Shown here piece after piece: positions 744 to 23,189 of a stretch of 53,771 nt of DNA. The DNA is taken from positions 1-53,771 of the IMG/VR virus record IMGVR_UViG_3300050821_003786. One strand, 5' to 3'. A program made the translations under genes and the position numbers. Position 1 is the first letter of the stretch, and each line of letters opens with the position of its first letter. The notes under the pieces were generated by a model, which had not been told where the DNA came from, did not search any database, and saw only the letters and a list, made by a program, of their open reading frames with translations. Source of the DNA: a virus.

Positions 744-892
744 CGCCTTCACGCGAGGGCTATGACTGCGGCCACTGGTGGTTCAGCCAGGGTCTCGATT
801 GGCGGCGTTGCCGGTTCTGCCGCAAGTATCAGGTCCGCTTGTTCAGCGTGTTCGGCGGTCCGTGGGTGACGGTGGAGCGGGGACAACCATGA
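740..892 (+). CDS. Small putative zinc-ribbon protein
   Basis: A 50-residue gene with GTG start overlapping the upstream TGA (GTGA) and a stop overlapping the next ATG (ATGA), so it fits exactly into the operon. The protein has CGH near residue 14 and CRFC near residue 28, a plausible Cys/His metal-binding set, with several Trp residues between. It is one of several tiny Cys-pair proteins in the early region. Function is unknown. The fit to both neighbours is the main reason to accept it. Confidence 0.5.
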   Translation: MTPSREGYDCGHWWFSQGLDWRRCRFCRKYQVRLFSVFGGPWVTVERGQP

Positions 893-1173
893 GCGCAACT
901 GTTCACCGCCTCGCGCGTCCGGACGCGCTGCTTACCAAGCAGCAGCTCGCCGCGCACCTGGACCGTTCGACGCGGTGGATCGAGATGCGCGTCCGCGAAG
1001 GCATGCCGTCCGAGGAACCGACGACGAGATTCCCTCACCGGCGGTTCAAACTGGCCGACGTCGAAGCATGGCTCGCTAACAGCGAACCGCGACCCGATCG
1101 CCTGTCGATCCTCGAGGCGCAGGTGGCTAGGCTGACGGCCACGGTGGAACGACTCGAGCGGAGGACAGCCTGA
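889..1173 (+). CDS. Excisionase-like MerR/HTH protein
   Basis: A 94-residue protein whose first half reads as a winged-helix domain of the excisionase/MerR type (LTKQQLAAHLDRSTRWIEMR, then a basic wing and a VEAWL helix). It ends in a heptad-like coiled coil (ILEAQVARLTATVERLE) that would allow oligomerisation. It starts at the ATG overlapping the previous stop, and its own stop overlaps the integrase ATG (TGATG). Family knowledge plus position suggest an Xis-type directionality factor that binds attP arms and controls integrase. It could instead be a simple repressor of the integrase operon. Confidence 0.7.
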   Translation: MSATVHRLARPDALLTKQQLAAHLDRSTRWIEMRVREGMPSEEPTTRFPHRRFKLADVEAWLANSEPRPDRLSILEAQVARLTATVERLERRTA

Positions 1174-2249
1174 TGGCGATCATCAAGCGCGGCGACAAGT
1201 ACGGGGTGCGCGTGTGGGTGGACGGCCGCCATCGCTGGCTCGGCACGTTCGACACGCGCACCGAGGCGAAGCGCGTCGAGGCGGACGCCACGATCGCCCC
1301 GGTCACATCGTCGTCGACGACCGTTGAGCAGTGGGCGCGGATCTGGCTGACCCGCTATGCCCGGCCGGCCGCGGCGACGCAGCGCACCTACCGGTACGCG
1401 GTCGAGCAGGTGATCCGCGACATCGGAGACGTTCGTCTCGCTGCGGTGGATCGGCCGATGGCGAAGCTGTGGGCGAACGAGTGGCCGCGGAACACGACGC
1501 GCACAGCCCGCACGATGTGGGCCGACGCGCTCCGTGACGGCGTCTGCCAGCACAACCCCTTCACCAGCCTGCGGCTCGAGACGCCGAAGGGTCGCAAGGA
1601 TCTGATCGCGCTCACCGAACCCGAGATCGACAAGCTGGCGAAGCTGGCTCGCGAGCAGTCTGGCGACTACGGCGACGAGATGGCCGCGATCGTGCTGTTC
1701 GCCGCCTACACCGGCGTGCGCCCGGGCGAGCTCTCCGCGCTGCAATGGCCGGACCTGGATCCGGCGAACCGCGAGGCGACGATCAGTCGCGCGCTCGACG
1801 GCCAGGGCGGCATCAAGGCGCCGAAGAACGGGCTCGCGCGCACGATCATCCTTCCACCACGCGCGCTCGAGGCTCTCGGCATGGTCGCGCGTCGCACCGA
1901 TTCGCCATACGTGTTCCATTCGCCGCGCGGGCGCCCGCTGAACAAGGGATCGCTGAGCTACCTGTGGCGTCCGCTCGCCGCAGCGTGGCGGTCTAAGGGC
2001 GGACGCGACCTCGACATGTACGAGCTGCGGCACGCGTGCGCGACGCTGATGCTCGAGCGCGGTCTCACGCCGGCGGACGTCGCGGTGCAGCTCGGCCACA
2101 CTGATGGCGGCCGGCTTGTTCAGATCCTCTACGGGCACCCGGACGAGGGGAACGCGCGCGACCGGTTGAAGATGGCGTTCGCGGCAGACGGCCACAAACA
2201 CGAAACCGATGCTGATCGACTCGGCCACATTTCGGACGCGACCGCATGA
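1173..2249 (+). CDS. int: Tyrosine recombinase / phage integrase
   Basis: A 358-residue integrase. Residues 1-45 form an AP2-like arm-binding region (KYGVRVWVDGRHRWLGTF), followed by a core-binding helical domain and a catalytic domain. Catalytic residues visible are Arg183 (GVRPGE), Lys216/218, Arg286-His287 (YELRH), His309 (LGH) and Tyr320 (ILYGH). The first His of the usual HxLRH box is Tyr283 here, a tolerated variation. It catalyses site-specific integration and, with an Xis, excision. It is coupled to the excisionase-like gene upstream. The non-coding stretch directly downstream is the natural place for attP. Confidence 0.93.
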   Translation: MAIIKRGDKYGVRVWVDGRHRWLGTFDTRTEAKRVEADATIAPVTSSSTTVEQWARIWLTRYARPAAATQRTYRYAVEQVIRDIGDVRLAAVDRPMAKLWANEWPRNTTRTARTMWADALRDGVCQHNPFTSLRLETPKGRKDLIALTEPEIDKLAKLAREQSGDYGDEMAAIVLFAAYTGVRPGELSALQWPDLDPANREATISRALDGQGGIKAPKNGLARTIILPPRALEALGMVARRTDSPYVFHSPRGRPLNKGSLSYLWRPLAAAWRSKGGRDLDMYELRHACATLMLERGLTPADVAVQLGHTDGGRLVQILYGHPDEGNARDRLKMAFAADGHKHETDADRLGHISDATA

Positions 2250-2573
2250 CCGATCGCCCGGTGAACACTCGTGGTTTCGTGGCTGTTGAACCCACCGTCT
2301 CCACTGACGACCACCGGCGCGAAGGAACGCGAATTCGCGCCGGTGCAGGGAGGTTTCCAGGCGGGGTGGTGCGCAGAACCGCGAACGGATTCGCGCAAAC
2401 TGCACGCTGCTGGTGGGCGACTCGGCTACAACTCGGCCGCAGAGGCACCGGATCTCGGCCACTCTCGCGGCTGCTCGAGCTCGTTCGGTTCCTGTCGACC
2501 GGCGGTGACGAGGCGCATGCGCGGAATCGGAGCTCGAGTGCCCGCTAACGAGCGTTACGTAAAGCTGGAGCCG
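2250..2573. other. Gap between int and methyltransferase: probable attP region
   Basis: These 324 bases contain no convincing gene. A 100-residue open frame from 2246 is Arg/Gly/Thr-rich without recognisable features. The stretch holds a perfect 12-bp inverted repeat (2312-2345) and, at about 2288-2308, a sequence resembling the 3' end of a tRNA (T-stem-like CCCAC, acceptor-like CGTCTCC, then A). Many actinophage integrases use a tRNA 3' end as attB and keep attP next to int, so this gap is the best attP candidate. The identity of the core is inference. Confidence 0.4.
2312..2345. repeat. Perfect 12-bp inverted repeat downstream of int
   Basis: CACCGGCGCGAA (2312-2323) is followed after a 10-base loop by its exact reverse complement TTCGCGCCGGTG (2334-2345). 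The loop and right arm also form a second palindrome, CGCGAATTCGCG (2329-2340). There is no T-run after it, so it is a weak candidate for an intrinsic terminator. It could be a terminator-like RNA hairpin after int or a protein-binding site in attP. Confidence 0.75.
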
Positions 2574-3161
2574 ATGAAATTCGCCTACGCCGACCCGCCA
2601 TATCTCGGGTGCTGCAAGCTCTACGACCACCATCACCCGGACGGGCGCTGCTGGGATGACCTGAGCACGCATGTCGCGCTGATCGAGCGCTTGGCGTGCG
2701 AGTTTCCGGACGGGTGGGCGCTCAGCTGCACGTCGGGCTCGCTACGACATCTGCTGCCGCATTGTCCGGCTGATGTGCGAGTGGGTCCGTGGGTCAAGAC
2801 GTTCGGCGCGTTCAAGCGCGGTGTTCGGCCAGCGTGGATGTGGGAGCCGGTGATCTTTCGGGGTGGTCGCAATCCGTCGAACGGTCACGCGCACAAGCCG
2901 CCCGAGAAGAACGGTAAGCAAACGACGCCCGAGGACTTCGCGATCGTCGAGGACGGCGGCTCGCTGCTGGCCGAGCCGATCACCCTGAAGAAAGGTTTGA
3001 CCGGAGCGAAGCCAGAGGCGTTCTGCGAATGGGTGCTCGACCTGCTGAATGTCCAACCCGGTGATGAGGTTGTGGACCTGTTCCCCGGCACCGGGATTAT
3101 GAGTCGTGTTGCTGCTGCGCGAGGTGCGCTCCCAGCGATTGATTTCGAGGCTGCTGCGTGA
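2574..3161 (+). CDS. DNA methyltransferase (DPPY type, permuted motif order)
   Basis: A 195-residue protein beginning MKFAYADPPYLG, so the catalytic DPPY motif lies at residues 7-10. The SAM-binding motif comes at the C-terminus (VVDLFPGTGIMS), after a conserved GAKPEAFCEWVL stretch. Catalytic-before-SAM order is the beta-like arrangement of N6-adenine/N4-cytosine methyltransferases. It probably modifies phage DNA against host restriction. Start choice is open: ATG 2574 has GGAG nearby, but an in-frame GTG at 2538 also has a GGAG five bases upstream and would add 12 residues. No cognate endonuclease is seen next to it. Confidence 0.85.
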   Translation: MKFAYADPPYLGCCKLYDHHHPDGRCWDDLSTHVALIERLACEFPDGWALSCTSGSLRHLLPHCPADVRVGPWVKTFGAFKRGVRPAWMWEPVIFRGGRNPSNGHAHKPPEKNGKQTTPEDFAIVEDGGSLLAEPITLKKGLTGAKPEAFCEWVLDLLNVQPGDEVVDLFPGTGIMSRVAAARGALPAIDFEAAA

Positions 3162-4960: not shown

Positions 4961-5791
4961 GTGATCTTCCCGTCCGACCAGGTCGCCCTGATCGCGTCCA
5001 GGCGCAAAACGCAGGGCCGCGTCCCGGTGCAGTTCGTCTCGGACCGTCAGCCGGCGAAGCTGCTGCCATGCCGATTCCAGATCGGCCGCGCCTACCGTGT
5101 GCAGGCCCGGCGTGACTGGACGGTCAGCAAGCTCGCCGCTCGAGCTCGCGTTGAGCAGCGAATCCAGCCGTCGCGCGCTCGCGCGGTCGTGTCCTACCTC
5201 GACGCCCCGCTGGACGCGACGCTGCCACCAACCGGGTTGCAGATCACGGTCGTCGATGTTCGCCGCGAGCTGCTCGGCGATCTCACACCCCAGGACGCCC
5301 GCCGCGAAGGGTTCCGGTTCACCGCAGAGTTCATGGCCCGCTGGGAACGCACACACGGCCTCGTAGACCCAGACCTGCACGTGTGGGTGATCTCGTTCGC
5401 GGTCGGCGATCTCCGCGACCAATTCGACCGCCCCCGCCTACTCACAAGCATCCGCCATGTCGGCCATGTCGCCTACGAGGTCGACAGCTCGGGCCGTCAG
5501 CACTGGCCGGCGAACGACGATCACTCCGAGGACTACACCGACCGGCCCGATCTCGCGATGCGCGCCAGCAGCGACCCCGGCGAAGGACTCACCGAAGCGC
5601 AGCTCAAACCCTACGTCCGCGACGCCCATCTACGAGACCTGGCCCGTCAGCGCGACAGCACAGAACGCTCACACGCACGCTCGCTCGCGATCCGCCTGAA
5701 AGACGCGCAGAAACGTCGTGACGCTGACGAGCTCGCGAAGATCCGCGGCGAGCTGGAACTACTCGAGCATCAGATCAGGACAGCAGCGTGA
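4961..5791 (+). CDS. ASCH/PUA-like domain protein
   Basis: A 276-residue protein. Residues about 15-160 resemble an ASCH (PUA-like) fold: a VPVQF strand, a basic RARAVVSYLDAP segment, then LLGDLTPQDARREGF and an HVWVISFAVGD strand after the conserved Trp helix. The last 90 residues are charged and helical, probably coiled coil. ASCH domains are thought to bind RNA or modified nucleotides, so a role in handling nucleic acid is inferred. The GTG start at 4961 overlaps the stop of a seven-codon ORF (4941-4964). Its own stop overlaps a GTG that opens a 23-codon ORF. Confidence 0.6.
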   Translation: MIFPSDQVALIASRRKTQGRVPVQFVSDRQPAKLLPCRFQIGRAYRVQARRDWTVSKLAARARVEQRIQPSRARAVVSYLDAPLDATLPPTGLQITVVDVRRELLGDLTPQDARREGFRFTAEFMARWERTHGLVDPDLHVWVISFAVGDLRDQFDRPRLLTSIRHVGHVAYEVDSSGRQHWPANDDHSEDYTDRPDLAMRASSDPGEGLTEAQLKPYVRDAHLRDLARQRDSTERSHARSLAIRLKDAQKRRDADELAKIRGELELLEHQIRTAA

Positions 5792-5859
5792 ATCCGTCCA
5801 CACCGTCCGTAGACTTGCGTGCCGAGCCCGCCAGAGCGCCGCGATCGGACTCGCTATGA
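5788..5859 (+). CDS. 23-codon bridging ORF
   Basis: A GTG-started frame of 23 codons overlaps the stop of the upstream gene (GTGA) and the start of the next gene (ATGA). The predicted peptide is Pro/Ser/Arg-rich with no motif. It may be a real tiny gene or simply a translational relay carrying ribosomes across the 65-base gap between two genes. Similar bridges occur at 3465, 6496, 50275 and 52901. Confidence 0.3.
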   Translation: MNPSTPSVDLRAEPARAPRSDSL

Positions 5860-6074
5860 GCACGGTAGGCCGTGGCCGCCGCATGCTCAAACTGCGACTC
5901 GCGAGAATCCTCCGCGAGGCCGCAGCTCAACTCGACGCCGAAACGCGACCGCTCACAGTCGAACGCGACGGCAAGGTGCTACGCCTACCACCCGGCTCAA
6001 CACTCGAGCAGGCATTGGATCTTCTGGCGCGGGTCGAAGAGTTCCTGCCGCCCGCTAGGGGTCCGCGGCCATGA
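5856..6074 (+). CDS. Small helical hypothetical protein
   Basis: A 72-residue protein starting at the ATG that overlaps the 23-codon bridging ORF. An N-terminal helix (KLRLARILREAAAQLDAE) is followed by a short strand (TVERDGKVLRLP) and a second helix (LEQALDLLARVEEFLP). It resembles a small dimerising helical protein. Function is unknown. The stop overlaps the next ATG. Confidence 0.5.
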   Translation: MSTVGRGRRMLKLRLARILREAAAQLDAETRPLTVERDGKVLRLPPGSTLEQALDLLARVEEFLPPARGPRP

Positions 6075-6499
6075 GATCATCGACGCGCATGGCAAGCAGG
6101 CAGCCTGGCTGGCACCAGAAGCTGCATCGGACGGAGATCCCGGGCATCTTCAAGCGCGGGAACCGGTATGTGTTCAGCTATCGGGTGAACGGGAAGCAGC
6201 GGTGGGAGTCGTGCGCATCGATGGCTGAGGCGTTCGAGCGCAAGTCCAAACTGGTCACCGAGCGCAATCAGGAAGCTCGAGCAGCACACCGCGAGATCAT
6301 CCGGGCGAATAGCGTCAGGCTTGCCGAGAATCGACGTACAGCGGCCGAAGCACTCTCCTTGATGATCCGCGCTGCGCAAGCGCTACAACGGGTGGCTGAC
6401 ACATCTGAGGGCGATCTCGTCATCTCGGCTCGCGCCTGTTTAATGCGGCTGTACGAGAACGAGGACTCGCTGAAGCGCGCGATGTACCGCAACACATGA
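6071..6499 (+). CDS. Stand-alone AP2-like integrase arm-binding domain protein
   Basis: A 142-residue protein. Residues about 22-55 (IPGIFKRGNRYVFSYRVNGK, then a conserved Trp) look like the N-terminal arm-binding beta-sheet of tyrosine integrases, followed by helical ARERN-type segments. It has no catalytic domain. It may be a DNA-binding accessory protein or an integrase remnant that was kept. It starts at ATGA overlapping the previous gene and is the last early gene before the terminase module. A five-codon ORF (6496-6513) bridges to the small terminase. Confidence 0.55.
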   Translation: MRSSTRMASRQPGWHQKLHRTEIPGIFKRGNRYVFSYRVNGKQRWESCASMAEAFERKSKLVTERNQEARAAHREIIRANSVRLAENRRTAAEALSLMIRAAQALQRVADTSEGDLVISARACLMRLYENEDSLKRAMYRNT

Positions 6500-6509
6500 G
6501 CGAGTCAAC

Positions 6510-6956
6510 GTGAAAGTCACCCCGGTCCGCATCCGTATCACCGAGCGAGAACGTGACGCCCTGGAGCTGCGTAAGGGCGGGATGACGTTCGAGCGGATCG
6601 CCGAGCAGTTGGGGTACGCGGACCGGTCCGGCGCGTGGCGTGCGGTGAACGCTGCGTTGTCGGCGACGTTGCAGGAGCCGTCTGACGAGCTCCGCCGCCT
6701 TGAATGCGAACGCTTGGATGCTCTGCTCCTCGCGATGTGGCCGAAGGCGCTGGAAGGCTCGACGTGGCACGTGGACCGCTGTCTGGCGGTGATGGATCGT
6801 CGCGCGAAGCTGTTGGGGTTGGACGCGCCGACTCGGCGGATTGTGGATGTGATCACGCGGGATGCGTTCTCGCAGGCGATGGAGGAGTTGGAGGCCGAGA
6901 TTGCCGAGCTCGAGACCGTTGATGGCGAGACAGTGGGAGATCGAGGCCAGTCCTGA
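6510..6956 (+). CDS. terS: Terminase small subunit
   Basis: A 148-residue protein with an N-terminal helix-turn-helix (LELRKGGMTFERIAEQLGYA), a helical middle and an acidic coiled C-terminal end. This is the usual layout of the DNA-recognition subunit of phage packaging terminase, which binds the packaging site and activates the large subunit. The GTG at 6510 follows a tiny ORF whose stop it overlaps. The 3' end overlaps the large terminase start (6922) by 35 bases, supporting tight coupling. Confidence 0.75.
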   Translation: MKVTPVRIRITERERDALELRKGGMTFERIAEQLGYADRSGAWRAVNAALSATLQEPSDELRRLECERLDALLLAMWPKALEGSTWHVDRCLAVMDRRAKLLGLDAPTRRIVDVITRDAFSQAMEELEAEIAELETVDGETVGDRGQS

Positions 6957-8697
6957 CGAGCTGGCGCGCTACAGGGCGCGCAGCCAGTACCTGGATGAGC
7001 TGAGGCGACGTAAGCCGAAGCAGCGTCGGTATGCGACTGCAGGCGAGATGGCGATGCGTCTGGATCCCGCAATGGTGCAGACGCCGGCGCTTGAGCTCAT
7101 CGACGCGGAGCTGGTTGAGATTCGCGATTGCGTCGAGATGATGCTGAACCGCCGCGGCTGGTTCGCGCTGATGGTCAACCTCGGGTTCGACGAGCAAGAC
7201 GCGCTGCGCCTGGTCGAGGAACTGATCCCGAATGCCGGGAACGCCCGGCTGGTGCTGTCGATGCCGCCGCAGGAAGGCAAGAGCTCGCGTGTCGGCCGGT
7301 ATGGCGTGCTGTGGCTGCTGCGCCAGTTCCCGGGGTTGCGGATCGGGATCGTCTCGTACGACGGCGATCACGCCGCGCGGATCTCGTACATGGTCCGCGC
7401 CGACGTTGAGGCGTTCGACGGCTCCGGCGGCAACCCAGACTTGGGGTTGAGGCTGGCTCGCAACCAGAAGGCCGTCAGTCGCTGGCTGTTGGCGCCGCCG
7501 GATGATGGCGGCGTATTCGCGATCGGTATCGGCGGCGGTCTGACCGGTCGGCCGCTGGATCTACTGCTGATCGACGATCCCGTCAAAGACACCAGGGCCG
7601 CGGAGTCGCTGTTGCTGTCGTCGCATGCGTGGGACTGGTGGCAAACCGTCGCACGGCCGCGACTTGCACCGTGGGCGCCCGTGATCGTGGTTGCGACCCG
7701 CTGGCATGAGGCGGACCTGATCGGCCGGATGCTCGCGAAGCAGACCGAGGACCAGCAGGCAGGGCTCGAGCATTTCGACCGGTGGCGTGAGGTCAACATT
7801 CCTGCCGAGGCCGATCACGACCCGGAGAAGGGCCAGACAGACGTTCTTGGTCGTGAGCCCGGCGAGTTCATGATCTCGGCGCGCGGTCGGACACGCGAGC
7901 AGTGGGAAGCCACGAAGGCCGCGACGTCGGCCCGGTTCTGGACCGCGCTGTATCAGGGCAAGCCCTCGCCGGATGTCGGCGATGTGTGGCTCAAATCGTG
8001 GTGGCGCCGGTACACGGAGCCGTTGTGGGAGCAGCAGCCAGACGGCTCCTACCGCGTGCCGAGCATGGAAAGCCTGTTGCAGTCGTGGGATATGACGTTC
8101 AAGGACAAGGACACCAGCGACTACGTGGTCGGGCAGCTGTGGGGGAAGCGTGGCGCCGACGCGTACCTGATCTTCCAGGTGTGGGCTCGCCTTAGCTTCA
8201 CCGACACCTTGGACGCGATGCGGCGTCTCACGCGCCTGTTTCCGGACGCTCATCGCAAGCTGGTGGAGGACAAGGCGAACGGCACTGCGGTGATGGACTC
8301 GCTGGCGCACGAGCTACCCGGGATCATCGCCGTCGAGCCCCGCGGCGGCAAGCTGGTGCGCGCCGAGGCCGTCAGCCCGTTCATCCGTGCCGGGAACGTG
8401 CACCTGCCGACGTCGACGGTCGCGAGCATGCAGGCCGAGATCGCGTGGGATCCGGAAGGACTGATCGTGGAGGCGACCGCGTTCCCGAACGGCGCGCACG
8501 ACGACCAGGTCGATGCCACCTCGCAGGCGCTCGCGGAGCTGTACTTGGGCGCGGGTGGTCCTGCGGAGGTGCTGGTCGCGCAGGGCGAGATCCCGCGGCC
8601 TGACCGCGCGCGCGAGCAGACACGCCAGGCGCCGGCACGGCAGCAGAGCGTTCAGCTGCCTGAGTGGCAGCGGCGCATGCTCGAACGCGCCCGCTGA
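6922..8697 (+). CDS. terL: Terminase large subunit (ATPase and nuclease)
   Basis: A 591-residue protein. The ATPase half shows a deviant Walker A (PPQEGKSS, about 115-122), Walker B (LDLLLIDDP, about 212-220) and motif III (ATRWHEADL, about 258-266). The nuclease half has spaced acidic residues: SWDMTF, VEDKANG and HDDQVDA near the C-terminus. It translocates DNA into the prohead and cuts concatemers or headful ends. Start at ATG 6922 is preferred over an in-frame ATG at 6862, which lies deeper inside the small subunit gene. It opens the late region. Confidence 0.95.
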   Translation: MARQWEIEASPDELARYRARSQYLDELRRRKPKQRRYATAGEMAMRLDPAMVQTPALELIDAELVEIRDCVEMMLNRRGWFALMVNLGFDEQDALRLVEELIPNAGNARLVLSMPPQEGKSSRVGRYGVLWLLRQFPGLRIGIVSYDGDHAARISYMVRADVEAFDGSGGNPDLGLRLARNQKAVSRWLLAPPDDGGVFAIGIGGGLTGRPLDLLLIDDPVKDTRAAESLLLSSHAWDWWQTVARPRLAPWAPVIVVATRWHEADLIGRMLAKQTEDQQAGLEHFDRWREVNIPAEADHDPEKGQTDVLGREPGEFMISARGRTREQWEATKAATSARFWTALYQGKPSPDVGDVWLKSWWRRYTEPLWEQQPDGSYRVPSMESLLQSWDMTFKDKDTSDYVVGQLWGKRGADAYLIFQVWARLSFTDTLDAMRRLTRLFPDAHRKLVEDKANGTAVMDSLAHELPGIIAVEPRGGKLVRAEAVSPFIRAGNVHLPTSTVASMQAEIAWDPEGLIVEATAFPNGAHDDQVDATSQALAELYLGAGGPAEVLVAQGEIPRPDRAREQTRQAPARQQSVQLPEWQRRMLERAR

Positions 8698-8733
8698 AAC
8701 TTCGACGTTCATCGAACAACAAGGAGGCATCGC

Positions 8734-9075
8734 ATGACTGCGATCGAGGACAACGCCGAGCTGCTGCTCGACATGCTGCACAACTCGCTGAACCCGGCTG
8801 TCTCGAGCGTCGCGTTGACGTCGGGAACGGCGGTGCAGGACGCGACGGGGAAGAACTCGACGTGGTACATCCCGATCACCGGCGGCACCGCGGGCACGCT
8901 TGAGGTGCAGATCGGGCCGGATAACACGGTCGCGCACACGATCGTTCCGGCGACGGCGGCGGATGCGGTTGCGTCGCAGCTGTTGACGATCAAGTTGCCG
9001 GCGAACTGGTTCATCAAGGTCACGGTCGCTGTGGCGACGATCTCGGCGAACGCTCAGGTCGTTACGGGCGGCTGA
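8734..9075 (+). CDS. Small beta-rich putative virion protein
   Basis: A 113-residue protein with an AAGGAGG ribosome binding site ahead of ATG 8734. It has a helical start, then beta-rich Thr/Val/Ala sequence (NSTWYIPITGGTAGTLEVQIG) typical of small phage structural proteins. It sits between terminase and the fibre genes, so a decoration, accessory or fibre-attachment role is possible. No family is recognised. Its stop overlaps the next ATG. Confidence 0.55.
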   Translation: MTAIEDNAELLLDMLHNSLNPAVSSVALTSGTAVQDATGKNSTWYIPITGGTAGTLEVQIGPDNTVAHTIVPATAADAVASQLLTIKLPANWFIKVTVAVATISANAQVVTGG

Positions 9076-9407
9076 TGAGCACCGAGGCCGCGGTTGAGCG
9101 GCTGATGCGCGACGTGCACCCGGCCGAGCTGCTGTTGCCCGATGGCAGCGTCGTTCGTGATGCGCGCGTGTTCGTGACCTCGAGGCGGCTGCTCGCGTTC
9201 CGCGTGGGCGACGGCGGAATCGAGAAAGCGGCCGATTTGGAGCTCGAGCAGCCGTGTTCGGTGCCCGCGGATCGCGGCAGCCTTCGCGGCCGTCTTGAAG
9301 CCCGGTTGGCGGATGGTGGGACGGTGTGGATCAACCGTGGTTCCGGCTGCGGTTGCGGATCGCCGCTCCGTGCTCTGGCCGGGCCGGTGTCGTGGACGGG
9401 CTCCTGA
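9075..9407 (+). CDS. Hypothetical protein with GCGCGSPLRAL motif
   Basis: A 110-residue protein starting at TGATG with the previous gene. The C-terminal end holds SGCGCGSPLRALAG, a Cys pair motif that recurs, from memory, in small conserved actinophage proteins located near structural genes. The N-terminal two thirds is beta-rich and acidic. Function is unknown. The next gene starts with a one-base overlap. Confidence 0.5.
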   Translation: MSTEAAVERLMRDVHPAELLLPDGSVVRDARVFVTSRRLLAFRVGDGGIEKAADLELEQPCSVPADRGSLRGRLEARLADGGTVWINRGSGCGCGSPLRALAGPVSWTGS

Positions 9408-9718
9408 TGGGCTGGGAACGTGTCGCCGGCGAGCCAGGCGGCGTTGAGCCTGAGGTGAGCCAGCTTGCCACCGATCTCTCGGTCCGTGCGTTCCGTGAGC
9501 GCGCGCAGGCCGCACAGACAAGGCTGGATGCTCGGCGGTTGCAGGCAAAGGCGGTCACGACCCGCAGGCGGGCTCTCAGAGCGCGCGTCGGGTCGAACGA
9601 GCGAAAGAAGCTGACCGCTCGCGCAGCGCAGCTGCTCGCGATGGCAGCACAGTTGGAAGCGGTCGCGGCTGCGGCGGACACAACCTCGACGCGGGGGAGC
9701 GACATTGGCGTTCTCTGA
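9407..9718 (+). CDS. Helical hypothetical protein
   Basis: A 103-residue protein, almost wholly charged helix with Ala/Arg/Gln-rich heptads ([18 protein letters not shown], then [18 protein letters not shown]), so probably a coiled coil. The ATG at 9407 overlaps the upstream stop by one base, and the 3' end overlaps the TTG start of the collagen-like gene at 9705. It may be a chaperone or trimerisation partner for the fibre, but this is only inference from position. Confidence 0.5.
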
Positions 9719-10667
9719 CTGGTCAATCCGGCTGACCACGATCGGCGCGACCGAGCTCGAGCTCGAGATGATCGCGGCGTCGTACTCGGTGACGCAAGCG
9801 ACCGTGCAGGCCGCATTGGACACGCTTGTCGCGTCGATCAGCAACCGCGATCTGCTGGTGATGCTGAACAATTGGCGGGCGAACGCCGGACCGTTCCAGG
9901 CGTCGTATCCGGGCGGTGGCCTGCTGTTCGGGGTGCTGGAAGGACCGCCGGGACCGACCGGCGCCGGCGTACCAGGCCCCACGGGCCCTACAGGGCCTAC
10001 GGGACCGTCCGGAGGGCCGACGGGGGCGACTGGCCCGACCGGCAGCACTGGCGCGACAGGACCGGTAGGCGCGACCGGCAGCACCGGTGCAACAGGCAGT
10101 ACCGGTCCGACGGGGTCGACTGGTGCAACTGGTCCTGTGGGCCCGACCGGCTCGACTGGCAGCACGGGGGCGACCGGCCCTGCCGGGGCAACAGGACCGG
10201 TGGGAGCGACAGGCCCGAGCGGAGGACCCACCGGTGCGACCGGTCCAGCAGGATCCACGGGTGCAACTGGCGCGACCGGTCCGACCGGGGCGGGACTCGA
10301 TTCGCACGGTCACCTGATCGGCTCCGGAGCTGCGCCAGCGGTCGCAGTTGGTGCCGGCGCGGGCAGTGGCGCTTCGGTCTCGCTCGATGCGCATGCGTCA
10401 GATCTCGCTGGCACCGTGACGCTCGCGGTGGGGTCGAGCCCGCCGTCGAGCGGGACATTGTTCACGCTGACGTTCGCGGCTGCGTACGCGAACACTCCGC
10501 ACGTTGTGTTCTCGCCGGTGAACCCGGCCGCCGCCAACTTCAGCGGCTTCGGTAGTGGACCTGAGATTTACGTGACCCCGAGCGTCGGGGGATTCACGCT
10601 GAGCATTGCGTCCACCGCGCTGACGGCGTCAACAACCTATGAGTGGTCCTACGTCGTGGTCGGATGA
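9705..10667 (+). CDS. Collagen-like tail fibre / appendage protein
   Basis: A 320-residue protein. The N-terminal about 80 residues are helical. Residues about 82-200 are uninterrupted Gly-X-Y triplets, mostly GPT, GAT and GST, broken twice by the same GPSGGPTG step. A beta-rich C-terminal head of about 110 residues follows. Such proteins form trimeric collagen-like rods on phage tails or capsids. The TTG start at 9705 has GGGGGAGC upstream. The many Thr residues in the Y position are possible glycosylation sites, which matters because a glycosyltransferase gene follows directly (ATGA). Confidence 0.85.
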
Positions 10668-11731
10668 GACTGCACGTCGTCGGGCTCCCGCACACTGAAA
10701 CGACCGTCGCCTACTCGTGGTGCGCGTATACGCAGAAGGTCCGCCGGTTCTGCGACATGATGAGCGCCCGCGGCCACCAGGTGTTCCTGTACGCCGGCCC
10801 GCGGAACGAGGCGTCTTGCTCCGAGCATGTCGTCTGCGTCGACGAGCTGCCGCCGGCCGGCACGATCCCCGAGTTCTACGCTGACGCGCCACCGTTCGCC
10901 CAGTTCAACCAGCGCGCGATCGCGGCGATCGGCGAGCGCCTAGAGGCTCGCGATTTCGTGTGCCTGATCGGCGGTACCGCGCAACAGCCGATTGCTGACG
11001 CTTTTCCCGCCCACCAGGTCGTCGAGTTCGGGATCGGATACGGCGGCGTGATCGCCTCCACCCACCACGTGTTCGAGTCCTACGCGTGGATGCACACCGT
11101 CCTCGGAGCGTTGACCGGCGGCGACTCGCACCGGGCCGACGGCCGCTTCTTCGACGCTGTGATCCCCAACTACTACGACCCCGCCGAGTTCCCCGCCGGC
11201 GACGCGGACGGCGACTATCTACTGTTCATCGGCCGGCTAATCGAGCGCAAGGGAATCCAGATCGCGCTTGACGCGGCGGCCGTGAGCGGACTCGAGCTGA
11301 TCGTCGCCGGCGCCGGGGATTACCCGCTTCCCGACTGGGTTGACCACCGCGGTGTTGTTGGCCCGGTCGAGCGCGCCGAGTTGATGGGTGGTGCGCGCGC
11401 GCTGCTGTCACCCACCTTGTATGTCGAGCCGTTCGGCGGTGTCGCCGTCGAAGCGCAGCTGTGCGGGACACCGGTGGTTACGACCGATTGGGGCGCGTTC
11501 ACCGAAACCGTCGAGCATGGCGTGACCGGGTTTCGCTGTCGGACGCTCGCCGAGTTCACGAACGCGATCGAGCGAGCCGGCAGCCTTGACCGTGACCGGA
11601 TCCGGGAGCACGCGATCGCGACATGGTCGCTCGATGCGATCGGACCACGGTACGAGTCCTATTTCGAGCGGCTCCAGACGCTGTGGGGCGACGGGTTTTA
11701 TGCGGACGCGCTGACGACGATAGGAGCTTGA
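10664..11731 (+). CDS. GT4-type (GT-B fold) glycosyltransferase
   Basis: A 355-residue cytosolic protein. The C-terminal domain shows the family-4 pattern: [18 protein letters not shown] (NDP-sugar domain start), then [18 protein letters not shown] with the E-x7-E pair, and an EHGVTGF motif. It should transfer a sugar from a nucleotide sugar with retention of configuration. It overlaps the collagen-like fibre gene by four bases and is followed after one base by the next fibre gene, so a virion fibre is the most likely acceptor. The host surface is an alternative acceptor. The presence of the enzyme is clear; the substrate is inference. Confidence 0.88.
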
Positions 11732-11732
11732 C

Positions 11733-13580
11733 GTGGCCGATTTTCCGCTCGAACGGTTTCAGCGTATCGCCGCCCCGGCCATGTTGATCTCACAGCTGCA
11801 GGCGGCGTGGGCGCTGTTGTCGCCGGCGGTGCAGGAGGCTGAGAAGCTTCGAATCGAGTCGCTGTCCGATTTCGCGGTCGCGCAGATCATGTCGTTCCCG
11901 GTCTCTGGCGGCGCGGTCCCGGCGCCCGCACCCCCGAGTGGGCAGTTGATCGTGGTGCAGGAGGTCACGGGCGCCGGCCCGGCGGTGGGTGCGCCGGTTT
12001 CGGGGGCTGCTGACAGCTCGCTGCTGGTCACCGACAGCTCGGGCGATCTTGCGTCCGGTCCCCCCACGAGCTCGGTGGTAACCGTAAGCTCAGGCACCCC
12101 GACCGCCGGGCAGGTTCCGGTGTTCACCGGCTCGGGCAACACGACGACACCGGGTGCTGGCGCTGCTGCAACCGCGCTCATCCCGAAACTGCATGTCGCG
12201 GGCCACAGCATCGCTGCTGCGGACCCGGTGACCTACGACAGTCACGGCGACGGGATCATCGGCAAGCTCGCGATGCTGCTCGGCGCCCGCGAGAACAACT
12301 ACGGCGTCGACAGCGCCGGGATGATGTCCGACAACTCGCAGGCGTGGGGGCACTTCGCAGCCACGGGCTCCTGGGTCAATTTCGTGCAGAACGTGGTGCA
12401 GCCCGCCCGCACCCGCGCGCCGTACCTCTCCCCGTTGGCGGTCGTTGAGTTGATGTGGGGGATCAACGACATCGCGCAGTACGGGCCCGCTAACGCCAAC
12501 TTCGTTGCGGTCTGGAAGATGGTGCTGACCGCGCTCGCCGCCCGCGGCCGCCTCGGTGCGCTCTACGAGGACAATGATGCGAGCGTCACCTACGGCAGCG
12601 GCTGGTCAACGGCAACCCAGACCACGAAGAACTCAGGGGCCGGACTGCACTTCACGGGCACGAACGGGTCCAGCTTCACGGTCACCGTCCCCGCCGACTA
12701 CGACGGACAAGGGGTCGTTTTCTGCTTCCTGGCGACGAACTCCTACACCGGCACGATGACCGCGACCATCGGCGCAACGCCCGTTGGCAATGTCAGCGGC
12801 GCAGCAGCGGCAGCCCTTAGTCTTGGCGTCGTCGTTCCATTCGTGCTGCGTCTGCCCGCGGGAACGCCGGGACTCGTGCCGGGGGCGACGATCACGATCA
12901 CCGCGAGCGCAATCTCTACCTTCGTGTTCTTCGACTGGTGGGGAATCGAGGCGAACCCGGCGCCGCTCGTGATCCTCGCGGACTGCCTGCGGCCACCGAC
13001 CCCGAACTACGGTGCGTACAGCGGCTGGCCGTACACGCCAACGGACGCTGATCTGCTTGCGGTCAACGCTGCGAACGCGACCGTTGCGGCACTGTTCAGC
13101 GACGGGATGGTGATCACGGACGGTGCCGACGCGCTGATCAACAAGGGCGGCGGCTGGCTCGTATACGTTCACCCCGACGAGCGCAGTTGCGGGAAGATCG
13201 CCGCGTTGCACGCCTCGCTGGCCCGGGCGGCGCTGACGCCAGCGATCCTGTCCGAACTCGACACCACAAGCCCCACCGCCAGGGTATTGCCGAGCACTCA
13301 GCAGCCGGGCAACTACACGCTGGCGCTCGCGGACGCCGAGACCTGCGTGGAGGGCACCAGCGCATCGGCGCAGACGTTCACGCTGCCGCCGAACGTGTTC
13401 GCGGTCGGCGATACCGGCGAAGTGTTCCAGGACGGCGCGGGGCAGATCACGATCGCCGCCGGGGGTGGCGTGACGCTGCGATCCGATGGCGCGAAGGTCA
13501 AGACGGCCGCGCAGTACTCGACGATCGGGTGGCGCTGCCGCGCGATCAACGAGTTCGTGCTCAGCGGCGACCTAGCGTGA
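11733..13580 (+). CDS. Fibre-like protein with SGNH/GDSL esterase domain
   Basis: A 615-residue protein. A helical N-terminus and a Thr/Ser/Val-rich linker of about 100 residues lead into an SGNH hydrolase: block I GHSI with Ser159, block III WGIND with Asn245, and block V VHPDE with His480 and Asp482. A beta-sandwich insert lies between blocks III and V. The last about 90 residues resemble a fibre tip (TLPPNVFAVGDTGEVFQDG). Such esterases on phage fibres deacetylate surface polysaccharide. The GTG start lies one base after the previous stop. Confidence 0.8.
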   Translation: MADFPLERFQRIAAPAMLISQLQAAWALLSPAVQEAEKLRIESLSDFAVAQIMSFPVSGGAVPAPAPPSGQLIVVQEVTGAGPAVGAPVSGAADSSLLVTDSSGDLASGPPTSSVVTVSSGTPTAGQVPVFTGSGNTTTPGAGAAATALIPKLHVAGHSIAAADPVTYDSHGDGIIGKLAMLLGARENNYGVDSAGMMSDNSQAWGHFAATGSWVNFVQNVVQPARTRAPYLSPLAVVELMWGINDIAQYGPANANFVAVWKMVLTALAARGRLGALYEDNDASVTYGSGWSTATQTTKNSGAGLHFTGTNGSSFTVTVPADYDGQGVVFCFLATNSYTGTMTATIGATPVGNVSGAAAAALSLGVVVPFVLRLPAGTPGLVPGATITITASAISTFVFFDWWGIEANPAPLVILADCLRPPTPNYGAYSGWPYTPTDADLLAVNAANATVAALFSDGMVITDGADALINKGGGWLVYVHPDERSCGKIAALHASLARAALTPAILSELDTTSPTARVLPSTQQPGNYTLALADAETCVEGTSASAQTFTLPPNVFAVGDTGEVFQDGAGQITIAAGGGVTLRSDGAKVKTAAQYSTIGWRCRAINEFVLSGDLA

Positions 13581-14290
13581 TGCTCGCCGTCGCCCGGAGA
13601 CGAAGCCTCGCGCCGAGCACCGGCGCACCGCCGATCATTCCCCCGTCCTCCCTCTCTGGGCTCGTTGGCTGGTGGAAAGCTGACTCGCTTGCGCTCACGG
13701 ACGGCACGGCCGTCTCTGACTGGACCGACATGTCCGGTGCCGGACACGATCTACTCCAAGCGACCGGCGCGAACCAGCCGATCTACAAGCTCGCGATCAT
13801 CAACGGACACAACGTTGTCCGGTTCGACGGCACCGACGACTACATGCAGGGATTGTGGACCCAGGCGCAACCCGTGGACACGTTCCTCGTGATCCAGGTC
13901 GTCGCCGATCAGAGCAATCAGGCGCTCTGCGACGGCGGTGTGAACCTTGGCGGCCAGATTTACGAGAGCGCGTTCGGTGCGGCGATGAACATCAGCACGT
14001 ATGCGGGCTCGTTCGGTCCTGTCGCTACGAGCGTGCCGAGCAGGCCCGCTCACCTATGGGAGTTCGTGGAGAACGGGGCGTCATCGTCGCTCGCGATGGA
14101 TAACACGTCGGCTGTGACAGGCGACGCGGGGACCAACAGTCCGGGCGGCCTGACGCTCGCAGCGCGCGGCGGCGCGACCAACTTCGCGCAGATCGACGTT
14201 GCCGAGGCGTTCATGTTCAACCGGGTTCTGAATGGCACGGAGCGCGGGGAGATGCAGGCATACGTTGATTCGCGCTACGCGCTCTGGTAG
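13580..14290 (+). CDS. LamG/concanavalin-like lectin-fold protein
   Basis: A 236-residue protein. It has the LamG-like signature: LVGWWKADSLALTDGTAVSD, then a VRFDGTDDYMQ strand and a C-terminal IDVAEAFMFNRVL followed by the usual LNGTERGEMQAYVDSRY end. This fold binds carbohydrate, so the protein probably acts as an adhesin tip or accessory of the fibre upstream. The start overlaps the previous stop (TGATG). No signal peptide is seen, consistent with a virion component. Confidence 0.75.
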   Translation: MLAVARRRSLAPSTGAPPIIPPSSLSGLVGWWKADSLALTDGTAVSDWTDMSGAGHDLLQATGANQPIYKLAIINGHNVVRFDGTDDYMQGLWTQAQPVDTFLVIQVVADQSNQALCDGGVNLGGQIYESAFGAAMNISTYAGSFGPVATSVPSRPAHLWEFVENGASSSLAMDNTSAVTGDAGTNSPGGLTLAARGGATNFAQIDVAEAFMFNRVLNGTERGEMQAYVDSRYALW

Positions 14291-21443: not shown

Positions 21444-23189
21444 ATGGATGAGATCCGCGAGCTACTGCAGAACCTGAACCAGCTGTCCGCCGAGGATCTT
21501 GAGCGTCTCCGCGGCCTGATCGTCGCCCAGTTCGACGCTGTCGACAAGGAGCCGACGACCCCTGAGAACGTCGCGCTGCTAAACGAGCTCGCCGACGCTG
21601 GCGAAGCGGTCCAGGCCGAAGGCAGTGAGCGTGAGGCGGCGCAAGCGCAGGCGGAGGCCGACAAGGAGGCCGCTCGCCAGCGGATCGCCGCGATCAGCGG
21701 CAACGGCGACGAAGAGCCCGAGGCTGAGGCCGAGACGGCCGAGGAGGCTGAGGCTGAAGCCGAGACTGCTGAGGAGCCCGCAGCTGAGGCCGAGACGGCC
21801 GAAGAGGCTGCCGAACCGGTCACCGCGACCGGCGGTCGCGTCCGCAAGCTTGCCGCCAGGCAGCCGAAGCCGAAGGGCAGCCCGGAGACCGGCGAGGACA
21901 CGCAACGCACGGCGCTCGTCGCGTCCGGTGAGGCGCGTGGATTCCCTGCCGGCACGGAGCTCGACAAGGAGAAGCTCGCGTACTCGATGTCAGCAGCCTT
22001 GGAGGCTCGGCGCGGCCAGCAGCCCGCCGGCCCGCGCGGCAGCCGTGGCCGGGACGTGATCATCGCTTCCGCGTCATGGGCGGACCAGTATCCGGAGGAG
22101 CGCAGGCTGCGCAACCAGGACTGGTTGCACAACGAGCGCGTGTTCCGTCAGACGAGCCGTGAAGCGCTGACCGCGACCGGCGGGATTTGCGCGCCGGTGA
22201 ACGTCGACTGGTCGATCAACATGATCGCCGATAGCGCCCGCCCGTTGCAGGGCGCGTTCCCCGCGAATCAGGTGTCTCGTGGTGGTCTGATCTACCGTCC
22301 CGACCTCGATTTCAGCGTCGCGGACGGCGCGATCGGCATTTGGACGGAGGCAACAGACGCGAGCCCGGCCGGCGCGACGAAGCCGATCTACACGGTCTCC
22401 TGCCCATCGACCGACACCGTGTACGTCGAAGCGGTCACCTCGCGGCTCGGGTTCGGGAACATGCAGTCCCGATTCGACCCGGAGACCGTCGCCGCGAACA
22501 CCGAAGCGGCGCTCGCCGCCTATGCGCGGACGGCGGACAACAACCTGCTGAACCTGCTCGCCACCGCGTGCACGCAAGGCGTCACGACCGCACCGTCAAC
22601 GAAGCTCGGCGCCACCCGCGACTTGGGGATGGCGATCATCCAAGCGGTCGCCGCGTTCCGCAACCTGCACCGCGCCTACGAGGGCGTGACGCTCCGGGCG
22701 GTGTTCCCGACCTGGGTGAAGGATCTCCTCCGGATCGATCTGCTCCGCGAGACCGCGCACCAGCAGGGGAACGACTGGAATTCGCTGTCGGTCACCGACG
22801 AGCAGATCGTGAGCCTACTCGAGGACTGGGGCGTATCCCCGATCTTCCACCTCGACGGCCAGTCCACCTCCGCCCCGGGCCTGGGCAGCGCGGTGAACCA
22901 GTACTTCACCTCGCAGTCCGGCTCCGCCGCGATCGAGACATTCCCGACCGAATGCGTCTGGTACCTGTACTACGAGGGCGCGGTCCAGTATTTGGACGGC
23001 GGCCGGCTCGACCTCGGGATCGTCCGAGACAGCCTGCTTGACGCCACGAACGATTACGAGTGCTTCGTCGAAGTGTTCGAGACGCTCGCGTTCCGAGGAT
23101 TCGGCGGCGGCGCGATCCAGTTCGTCAGCGCGCTGTGCGCGAACGGCGGATCGGCTGGCACGATCAGCACCACCGGCGTCTGCGCGTAA
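21444..23189 (+). CDS. Major capsid protein (HK97 fold) with N-terminal scaffold domain
   Basis: A 581-residue protein. Residues 1-140 form a charged helical scaffold (delta) domain with a three-fold Glu/Ala repeat (EAEAETAEEA type). After a basic linker the HK97-type core starts near residue 210 and shows GGICAPVNVDWSI, the E-loop and P-domain region, and YECFVEVFETLAFRGFGGGA near the end. The scaffold domain is expected to be removed by the protease upstream. AAGGAG precedes ATG 21444. Confidence 0.88.
   Translation: MDEIRELLQNLNQLSAEDLERLRGLIVAQFDAVDKEPTTPENVALLNELADAGEAVQAEGSEREAAQAQAEADKEAARQRIAAISGNGDEEPEAEAETAEEAEAEAETAEEPAAEAETAEEAAEPVTATGGRVRKLAARQPKPKGSPETGEDTQRTALVASGEARGFPAGTELDKEKLAYSMSAALEARRGQQPAGPRGSRGRDVIIASASWADQYPEERRLRNQDWLHNERVFRQTSREALTATGGICAPVNVDWSINMIADSARPLQGAFPANQVSRGGLIYRPDLDFSVADGAIGIWTEATDASPAGATKPIYTVSCPSTDTVYVEAVTSRLGFGNMQSRFDPETVAANTEAALAAYARTADNNLLNLLATACTQGVTTAPSTKLGATRDLGMAIIQAVAAFRNLHRAYEGVTLRAVFPTWVKDLLRIDLLRETAHQQGNDWNSLSVTDEQIVSLLEDWGVSPIFHLDGQSTSAPGLGSAVNQYFTSQSGSAAIETFPTECVWYLYYEGAVQYLDGGRLDLGIVRDSLLDATNDYECFVEVFETLAFRGFGGGAIQFVSALCANGGSAGTISTTGVCA

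Follow-up and report, generated by a model that had tools for sequence, protein, structure and literature searches.

The region at positions 2250–2537 of the DNA analysed here is, with high confidence, a phage attachment site (attP) whose target is the 3′ terminus of ssrA, the tmRNA gene of the host. Four lines of sequence evidence carry this reading: the core of the site is the end of ssrA, the same core is linked to related integrases in other genomes, one contig bears both an ssrA gene and a displaced core, and the spacing of the predicted arm-type sites on the P′ side is shared with ssrA-linked sites elsewhere. The tyrosine integrase encoded next to the site would be the protein that acts on it, and the phage would presumably become a prophage at ssrA by this route.

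The window, by which we mean the whole stretch analysed, corresponds to a 53,771-bp virus record with a GC content of 66.9%, in which no end repeats were found; no near match of its first 25 kb was detected among 50,697 phage records. Positions 5052–14262 are 100% identical over 9,211 bp to a separate virus record, IMGVR_UViG_3300020583_000153 (L002), which, to judge by its IMG sample number, comes from a freshwater sample. Tandem repeats at 10029–10099 and 21720–21810, whose unit lengths of 18 and 30 bp are both divisible by three, sit inside long plus-strand ORFs (9705–10667 and 21444–23189).

The integrase gene (int; 1173–2249, plus strand) encodes a protein of 358 aa that matches the Phage_integrase profile PF00589 (E 6.1e-17; 62.4 bits, against a curated cut-off of 27.1) and the phrog_1 integrase family (4.7e-59), which agrees with the original prediction that the gap directly follows an integrase gene. 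The protein matches 592 phage records (88 of Mycobacterium), all at less than 60% identity, and scans of viral and genome contigs with int peptides returned no relatives. Directly upstream, with a 1-base overlap, lies a 94-aa ORF (889–1173, plus strand) that can be regarded as a candidate excisionase; its PHROG matches point to two functions (terminase small subunit, 2.6e-6; excisionase/regulator, 1.9e-5), and it has no Pfam match. The gene after the gap (2538–3161, plus strand), for which neither Pfam nor PHROG matches were found, would become the first phage gene on the ssrA side once the phage is integrated. A comparison of the attP region itself with the 50,697 phage records gave nothing significant (best E 0.3).

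Judged by codon usage, the gap after int is probably non-coding. The ORF at 2246–2548 that overlaps it scored −0.17 bits/codon, like non-coding DNA, while int, itself a member of the training set, scored +0.43; the frame at 2271–2537, an upstream extension of the next gene that was likewise used for training, gave +0.04, a value that favours neither side. With GTG 2538 as the start of the next gene the gap measures 288 bp, and with ATG 2574 it measures 324 bp. It had been described as the only gap above 300 bases, a description that is not confirmed; a crude gene caller left other gaps of more than 300 bp, on a rough count.

The attP core, CCCACCGTCTCCACT (2291–2305, plus strand), is unique in the window and is part of GAACCCACCGTCTCCACT, present at 2288–2305. 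Its first 13 bp, CCCACCGTCTCCA (2291–2303), are the 3′ end of ssrA, that is, the 3′ strands of the T-stem and the acceptor, and the identity extends to 15 bp when CT is counted. Within one actinobacterial order, GTTCRANTCCCACCGTCTCCA was found as an ssrA 3′ end in 51 of the 232 genomes, at 56 places. ARAGORN called a tmRNA at 27 of the 30 loci listed among these places, and at 10 of the 30 CTCCA is followed by CT, so that the identity with attB often amounts to 13 bp and not 15. The tmRNA family was detected in all eight genomes chosen for closer study. In six of these (G552, G554, G549, G481, G561 and G615) ssrA ends in GATTCCCACCGTCTCCA, or more fully in GTGGGTTCGATTCCCACCGTCTCCA, while G530 and G183 differ. 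The fuller sequence comprises T-stem, T-loop, T-stem and acceptor strand and pairs with the ssrA 5′ end GGGGACG; CCCACCGTCTCCA is common to the window and the six genes. The attP core thus carries the end of an RNA gene over 13–15 bp, as an element integrating into tDNA would, and the integrase relatives described below suggest the host lineage. In the phylum draw the 15-mer occurred in 3 of 396 genomes, as did its reversed control (3 of 396), which is the chance level and, since the draw used the 15-mer, bears on the longer sequence and not on the extent of the 13-bp target beyond the order. The exchange point most likely falls within CCCACCGTCTCCA, because on the left of the core the displaced copies read GAACCC and ssrA reads GATTCCC, and because the ssrA of G554 departs right after CTCCA.

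It had first been proposed that the target was a true tRNA gene ending in CCCACCGTCTCCACT. The part of that proposal which sees in the core the 3′ strand of a T-stem and acceptor of a tRNA-like gene is supported by the identity with ssrA; the choice of a tRNA gene is not supported in the genomes searched, and it now appears highly improbable. The T-stem/acceptor-like sequence speaks for it, as does G183, whose integrase is 46% identical to that of the window and which bears the same P′ arm behind tRNA-Val. However, the tRNA-Val of G183 ends differently, and it is ssrA that matches the core. The suggested search for tRNA genes with this end, made with the pattern GTTCN{0,1}AACCCACCGTCTCC, which covers both T-loop registers, gave 22 loci in the species collection, none of which is a tRNA at the match; the single tRNA called by ARAGORN lies about 4.9 kb from the match, and nine of the 22 are haloarchaeal loci with one shared context. 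The genes that do match are the tmRNA genes of the actinobacterial order.

Searches of host genomes were centred on the actinobacterial genome G016, that of the Humibacillus locus L023. An int match at E ≤ 1e-20 was present in one of the 396 phylum-drawn genomes, G183, and in 14 of the 232 genomes of the order to which G183 belongs; the best identities were 59% (G552), 53% (G615, two copies), 50% (G481), 48% (G530) and 46% (G183). No integrase more than 59% identical to that of the window occurred in the 396 and 232 genomes, and a search of the same genomes by integrase revealed neither a lysogen of this phage nor a phage with its structural genes at ssrA. At the same time, the core itself recurs just downstream of related integrases, with 19/19 bp twice in G615, where TGAACCCACCGTCTCCACT follows each of the two integrase copies, and with 21/23 bp in G552; the identity of these core-linked integrases to that of the window is 52–59%. 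A looser version, CCGTCTCCACC, was read by eye downstream of the G530 integrase, and no recognisable core was seen behind those of G481 and G183.

With at most one mismatch, the core 18-mer was located at 8 sites in 5 of the 232 genomes, and the reversed pattern at none. When these sites were aligned with the window (n = 9), they proved alike on the left of the core and diverged at its right edge, as expected of junctions; ARAGORN placed none of the eight within a tRNA or tmRNA. An integrase is visible at just 3 of the 8 displaced cores, the site G561a ending at a contig edge. In G554, the ssrA 3′ end (C20:61863) and a displaced core (C20:58513) are found on one contig and the same strand, 3.3 kb apart, so that in this relative an intact RNA gene and a displaced fragment bound a chromosomal element in which no integrase was found. 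For the phage itself, no such arrangement was seen. The island (L093 10514–13884) contains a gene for a RibD_C-type reductase, and would need an integrase in trans or be decayed.

Other core-linked cases differ in what they carry. A TrwC relaxase gene is found near int in G552:C80, and for this reason the att system also serves an element of the conjugation type; in G615 the integrase copies are in tandem, and further islands are without a detected integrase. In G549, a displaced core lies 14 kb from ssrA, and a P′ arm of the window type is absent after the gene. After this ssrA, and likewise after the displaced core in G552:C80 and G561a, comes TTTTnCCTGCAAATnGGC, which represents either DNA that originally lay downstream of ssrA and was moved outward or the terminal part of an older island. 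In G561:C95 (L094 1468–3453), two displaced cores in direct orientation stand 1,968 bp apart, each with its own left arm and with a sulfatase gene between them, which looks like tandem accretion of islands. On the minus strand of G552:C113 (L092 2396–6583), a gene for a 1,396-aa protein adjoins a displaced ssrA core; AAA and WD40 matches fall below the Pfam cut-offs, and the protein is perhaps cargo of the STAND type.

Several further searches gave no additional sites. The core 18-mer was absent from viral_contigs; the ssrA/tRNA 3′-end pattern occurred there in 58 contigs, two of them with a weak integrase match (25–26% identity), with no second exact core in the stretches examined and no lysogen among them. 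The regions upstream of the PEP carboxylase gene in five relatives of G615, taken as a model of an empty attB, matched the core at best with 5 mismatches in 18, one of these regions containing a run of N. Direct repeats around the ends of other integrase genes (G183 twice, G481, G552:C82 and G581) were not convincing, and no displaced tRNA-Val end of at least 12 bp was present in the 80 kb of G183 examined.

The P′ side of the site provides the second body of evidence. Two predicted arm-type pairs, both of the form GCGAA-N4-5-GCGAA, are located there on the plus strand: GCGAAGGAACGCGAA (2319–2333), 13 bp after the core, and GCGCAGAACCGCGAA (2371–2385), 65 bp after it. A search with the core and pair 1 yielded 6 of the 232 genomes of the order (none with the reversed pattern), and all six matches are at ssrA 3′-end sequence; ARAGORN called a tmRNA at five, the contig of the sixth ending early. 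Four of these genomes (G551, G552, G557 and G615) had shaped the pair-1 motif, and G547 and G559 are new matches. Pair 1 has the same position in the six sites, being part of the search pattern, and pair 2, which lay outside that pattern, is found at +65 to +67 in all six. Within 3.6 Mb of loci (both strands, overlaps included), the double arm motif occurs at these six ssrA sites, in the window and behind tRNA-Val in G183, and nowhere else. A single pair turns up more often, in 5 of 1548 host-DNA tiles and 6 of 215 tiles of the window; a 16-base arm motif that was also tried was one base too long, missed real sites and was abandoned. At the G183 site (G183:C2, L075 7637–7803), tRNA-Val(CAC) is followed by a P′ hairpin and the arm pairs, the double motif standing 15 bp after the tRNA gene, and the 46% identical integrase is 2.3 kb away; it is the same arm module at another target gene.

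The P side is conserved weakly. The motif TTTCGTGGCTGTT (2275–2287, plus strand) adjoins the core, and in the nine-site alignment the relatives mostly have TTCGCACC plus 3–4 bp; T[TC]CG[CT] occurs at −12 from GAACCC in 7 of the 9 sites, and the left arm resembles that of relatives near the core alone. As far as the sequence goes, then, the arm-type sites expected of an attP that integrates into tDNA are represented by predicted P′ pairs of conserved position at six ssrA-linked sites and by a weakly conserved P side. Four direct copies of ACTCGGCCAC with at most one mismatch (at 2219, 2420, 2431 and 2453, spanning 2219–2462, plus strand) may be extra protein sites. A 10-mer family with four or more members was present in one of 300 shuffled sequences and in 5 of 157 tiles of the window; the repeats are absent from the six ssrA-linked P′ arms examined (one of which was covered for 112 bp).

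Arm pair 1 is enclosed by a hairpin that starts 6 bp past the core (2312–2345, plus strand). The perfect inverted repeat reported at this place in the original prediction is indeed present; its 12-bp arms, CACCGGCGCGAA and TTCGCGCCGGTG, enclose a loop of 10 nt. The 53.8-kb window contains two perfect 12-bp repeats with a loop of up to 30 nt, against a mean of 0.4 and a maximum of 4 in 100 first-order Markov sequences; for the 288-bp gap, such a repeat was present in 0.15% of 2000 sequences generated likewise. The RNA fold has −25.6 kcal/mol (z −3.07), a value that none of 200 shuffles reached. Comparable hairpins follow ssrA in G547, G551, G552 and G559, and tRNA-Val in G183. The letters of the outer stem vary between elements, yet pairing is kept at 30 of 42 positions, a result equalled by 102 of 5040 permutations of the arms, in a comparison of seven of the eight sequences from which G615 was dropped, its 3′ partner being missing. 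Next to the ssrA of G481, which is without the P′ arm, a strong hairpin also follows directly. The hairpin 18-mer was found in 6 contigs of viral_contigs; the stretches of these that were examined showed neither an integrase match nor further DNA of the window, and the matches are taken as chance.

We read the hairpin as the probable replacement of the ssrA terminator, because integration would part ssrA from its own downstream DNA, and a single structure that is both integrase arm site and replacement terminator is plausible. This terminator role is the least secure step of the explanation, because the covariation is weak, both in the seven sequences just mentioned and in smaller sets (65 of 500 shuffles as good with three sequences, 13 of 500 with five), G557 and G615 fold weakly after ssrA and have no comparable hairpin, and the sequence after the G549 ssrA folds no better than chance.

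It is also very unlikely that the hairpin is just a transcription terminator of the int operon and that the resemblance of the core to ssrA is accidental. The strength of the hairpin and its place 62 bp past the int stop codon would fit such a role, and, although no T-run follows it, the missing T-run is compatible with termination in G+C-rich hosts; but the recurrence of the core and of two arm pairs with their spacing at ssrA in six genomes would be left unexplained. In the excised phage, the hairpin may also end int transcripts. That the hairpin, with its perfect palindromic arms beside int, is itself a recombination core of the symmetric Cre or Xer kind in place of CCCACCGTCTCCACT is barely credible, given that the nine aligned sites share the core and diverge at its right edge, that the hairpin arms vary between elements and lie on the element side of the ssrA junction, and that the 10-nt spacer exceeds the 6–8 bp usual for such sites.

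With attP at the ssrA 3′ end as the preferred reading, integration can be envisaged as follows. The tyrosine integrase would bind the arm-type sites beside the core and catalyse recombination between the core and the ssrA 3′ end, giving the order ssrA (5′ part)–core–P′–phage–int–P–core–host downstream DNA. Since the final 13 bp of the gene come with the phage, ssrA would be made whole again, while the host DNA downstream of it would be carried to the opposite end of the prophage. The hairpin would end up next to the restored gene, beginning 6 bp past it, where it would hold the first integrase arm pair and probably take the place of the displaced terminator.

The closest known systems are the subcluster K1 mycobacteriophages (CrimD, Angelica, Anaya and Adephagia), for which tmRNA integration was demonstrated with an int-attP plasmid and lysogen PCR (PMC3203893). 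They share with the window phage a tyrosine integrase and, as predicted for the latter, the tmRNA 3′ end as the target and arm-type repeats flanking the core; their putative stem-loop terminator between the core and arm site P3 (PMC3203893) has a counterpart in the hairpin beside the core of the window. In contrast, the K1 core is 5′ of int and that of the window phage 3′ of it. The K1 arm sites are repeats of 11 bp, with a pair to either side of the core and the two sides mutually inverted, whereas the predicted sites of the window phage are GCGAA-N4-5-GCGAA pairs on the P′ side, one of them enclosed by the hairpin. The comparison suggests that the phage works like K1 and is not a claim of membership; its integrase matches among phage records are all below 60% identity.

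Beyond phages, the genomic islands of Dehalococcoides are described as tandem and located downstream of ssrA, with ssrA itself or a 20-bp copy of its 3′ end at their boundaries; their integration module codes for a serine recombinase (PMC3146451), unlike the tyrosine integrase of the window phage. The tDNA islands of the Islander database have ends marked by a regenerated RNA gene and its displaced fragment, and the tmRNA gene showed stronger enrichment as a target than did any type of tRNA (PMC4383910); what sets the present case apart is its actinobacterial order, its arm sites and its hairpin. Integration of ICEKp1 of Klebsiella at tRNA-Asn is reported to shift the terminator of the RNA gene to the far end of the element, with int adjoining the RNA gene and read from its promoter (PMC13023037), whereas int of the window phage would sit at the far end and the hairpin next to ssrA. 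Actinobacterial ICEs are treated in PMC3218068.

The strategy of keeping the target gene whole is known already; here it is very probably used by a new actinobacterial phage lineage. By this reading, an uncultured, probably freshwater phage gains a site-specific target and a probable host order, and its int-attP region might serve as a compact cassette for that order. One att architecture appears to be common to the phage, a relaxase-bearing element and other ssrA islands, with a possible double role for the hairpin. We tentatively suggest, as a possibility that we would not yet favour, that one actinobacterial integrase family, common to the phage, the relaxase element and the islands without a detected integrase, keeps a fixed P′ module, in which the arm pair is built into the terminator hairpin capping the restored RNA gene, whereas its core has switched between ssrA and tRNA-Val. 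If this were the case, integrase binding could compete with the folding of the hairpin or with ssrA read-through, and would thereby tie the state of the prophage to tmRNA expression.
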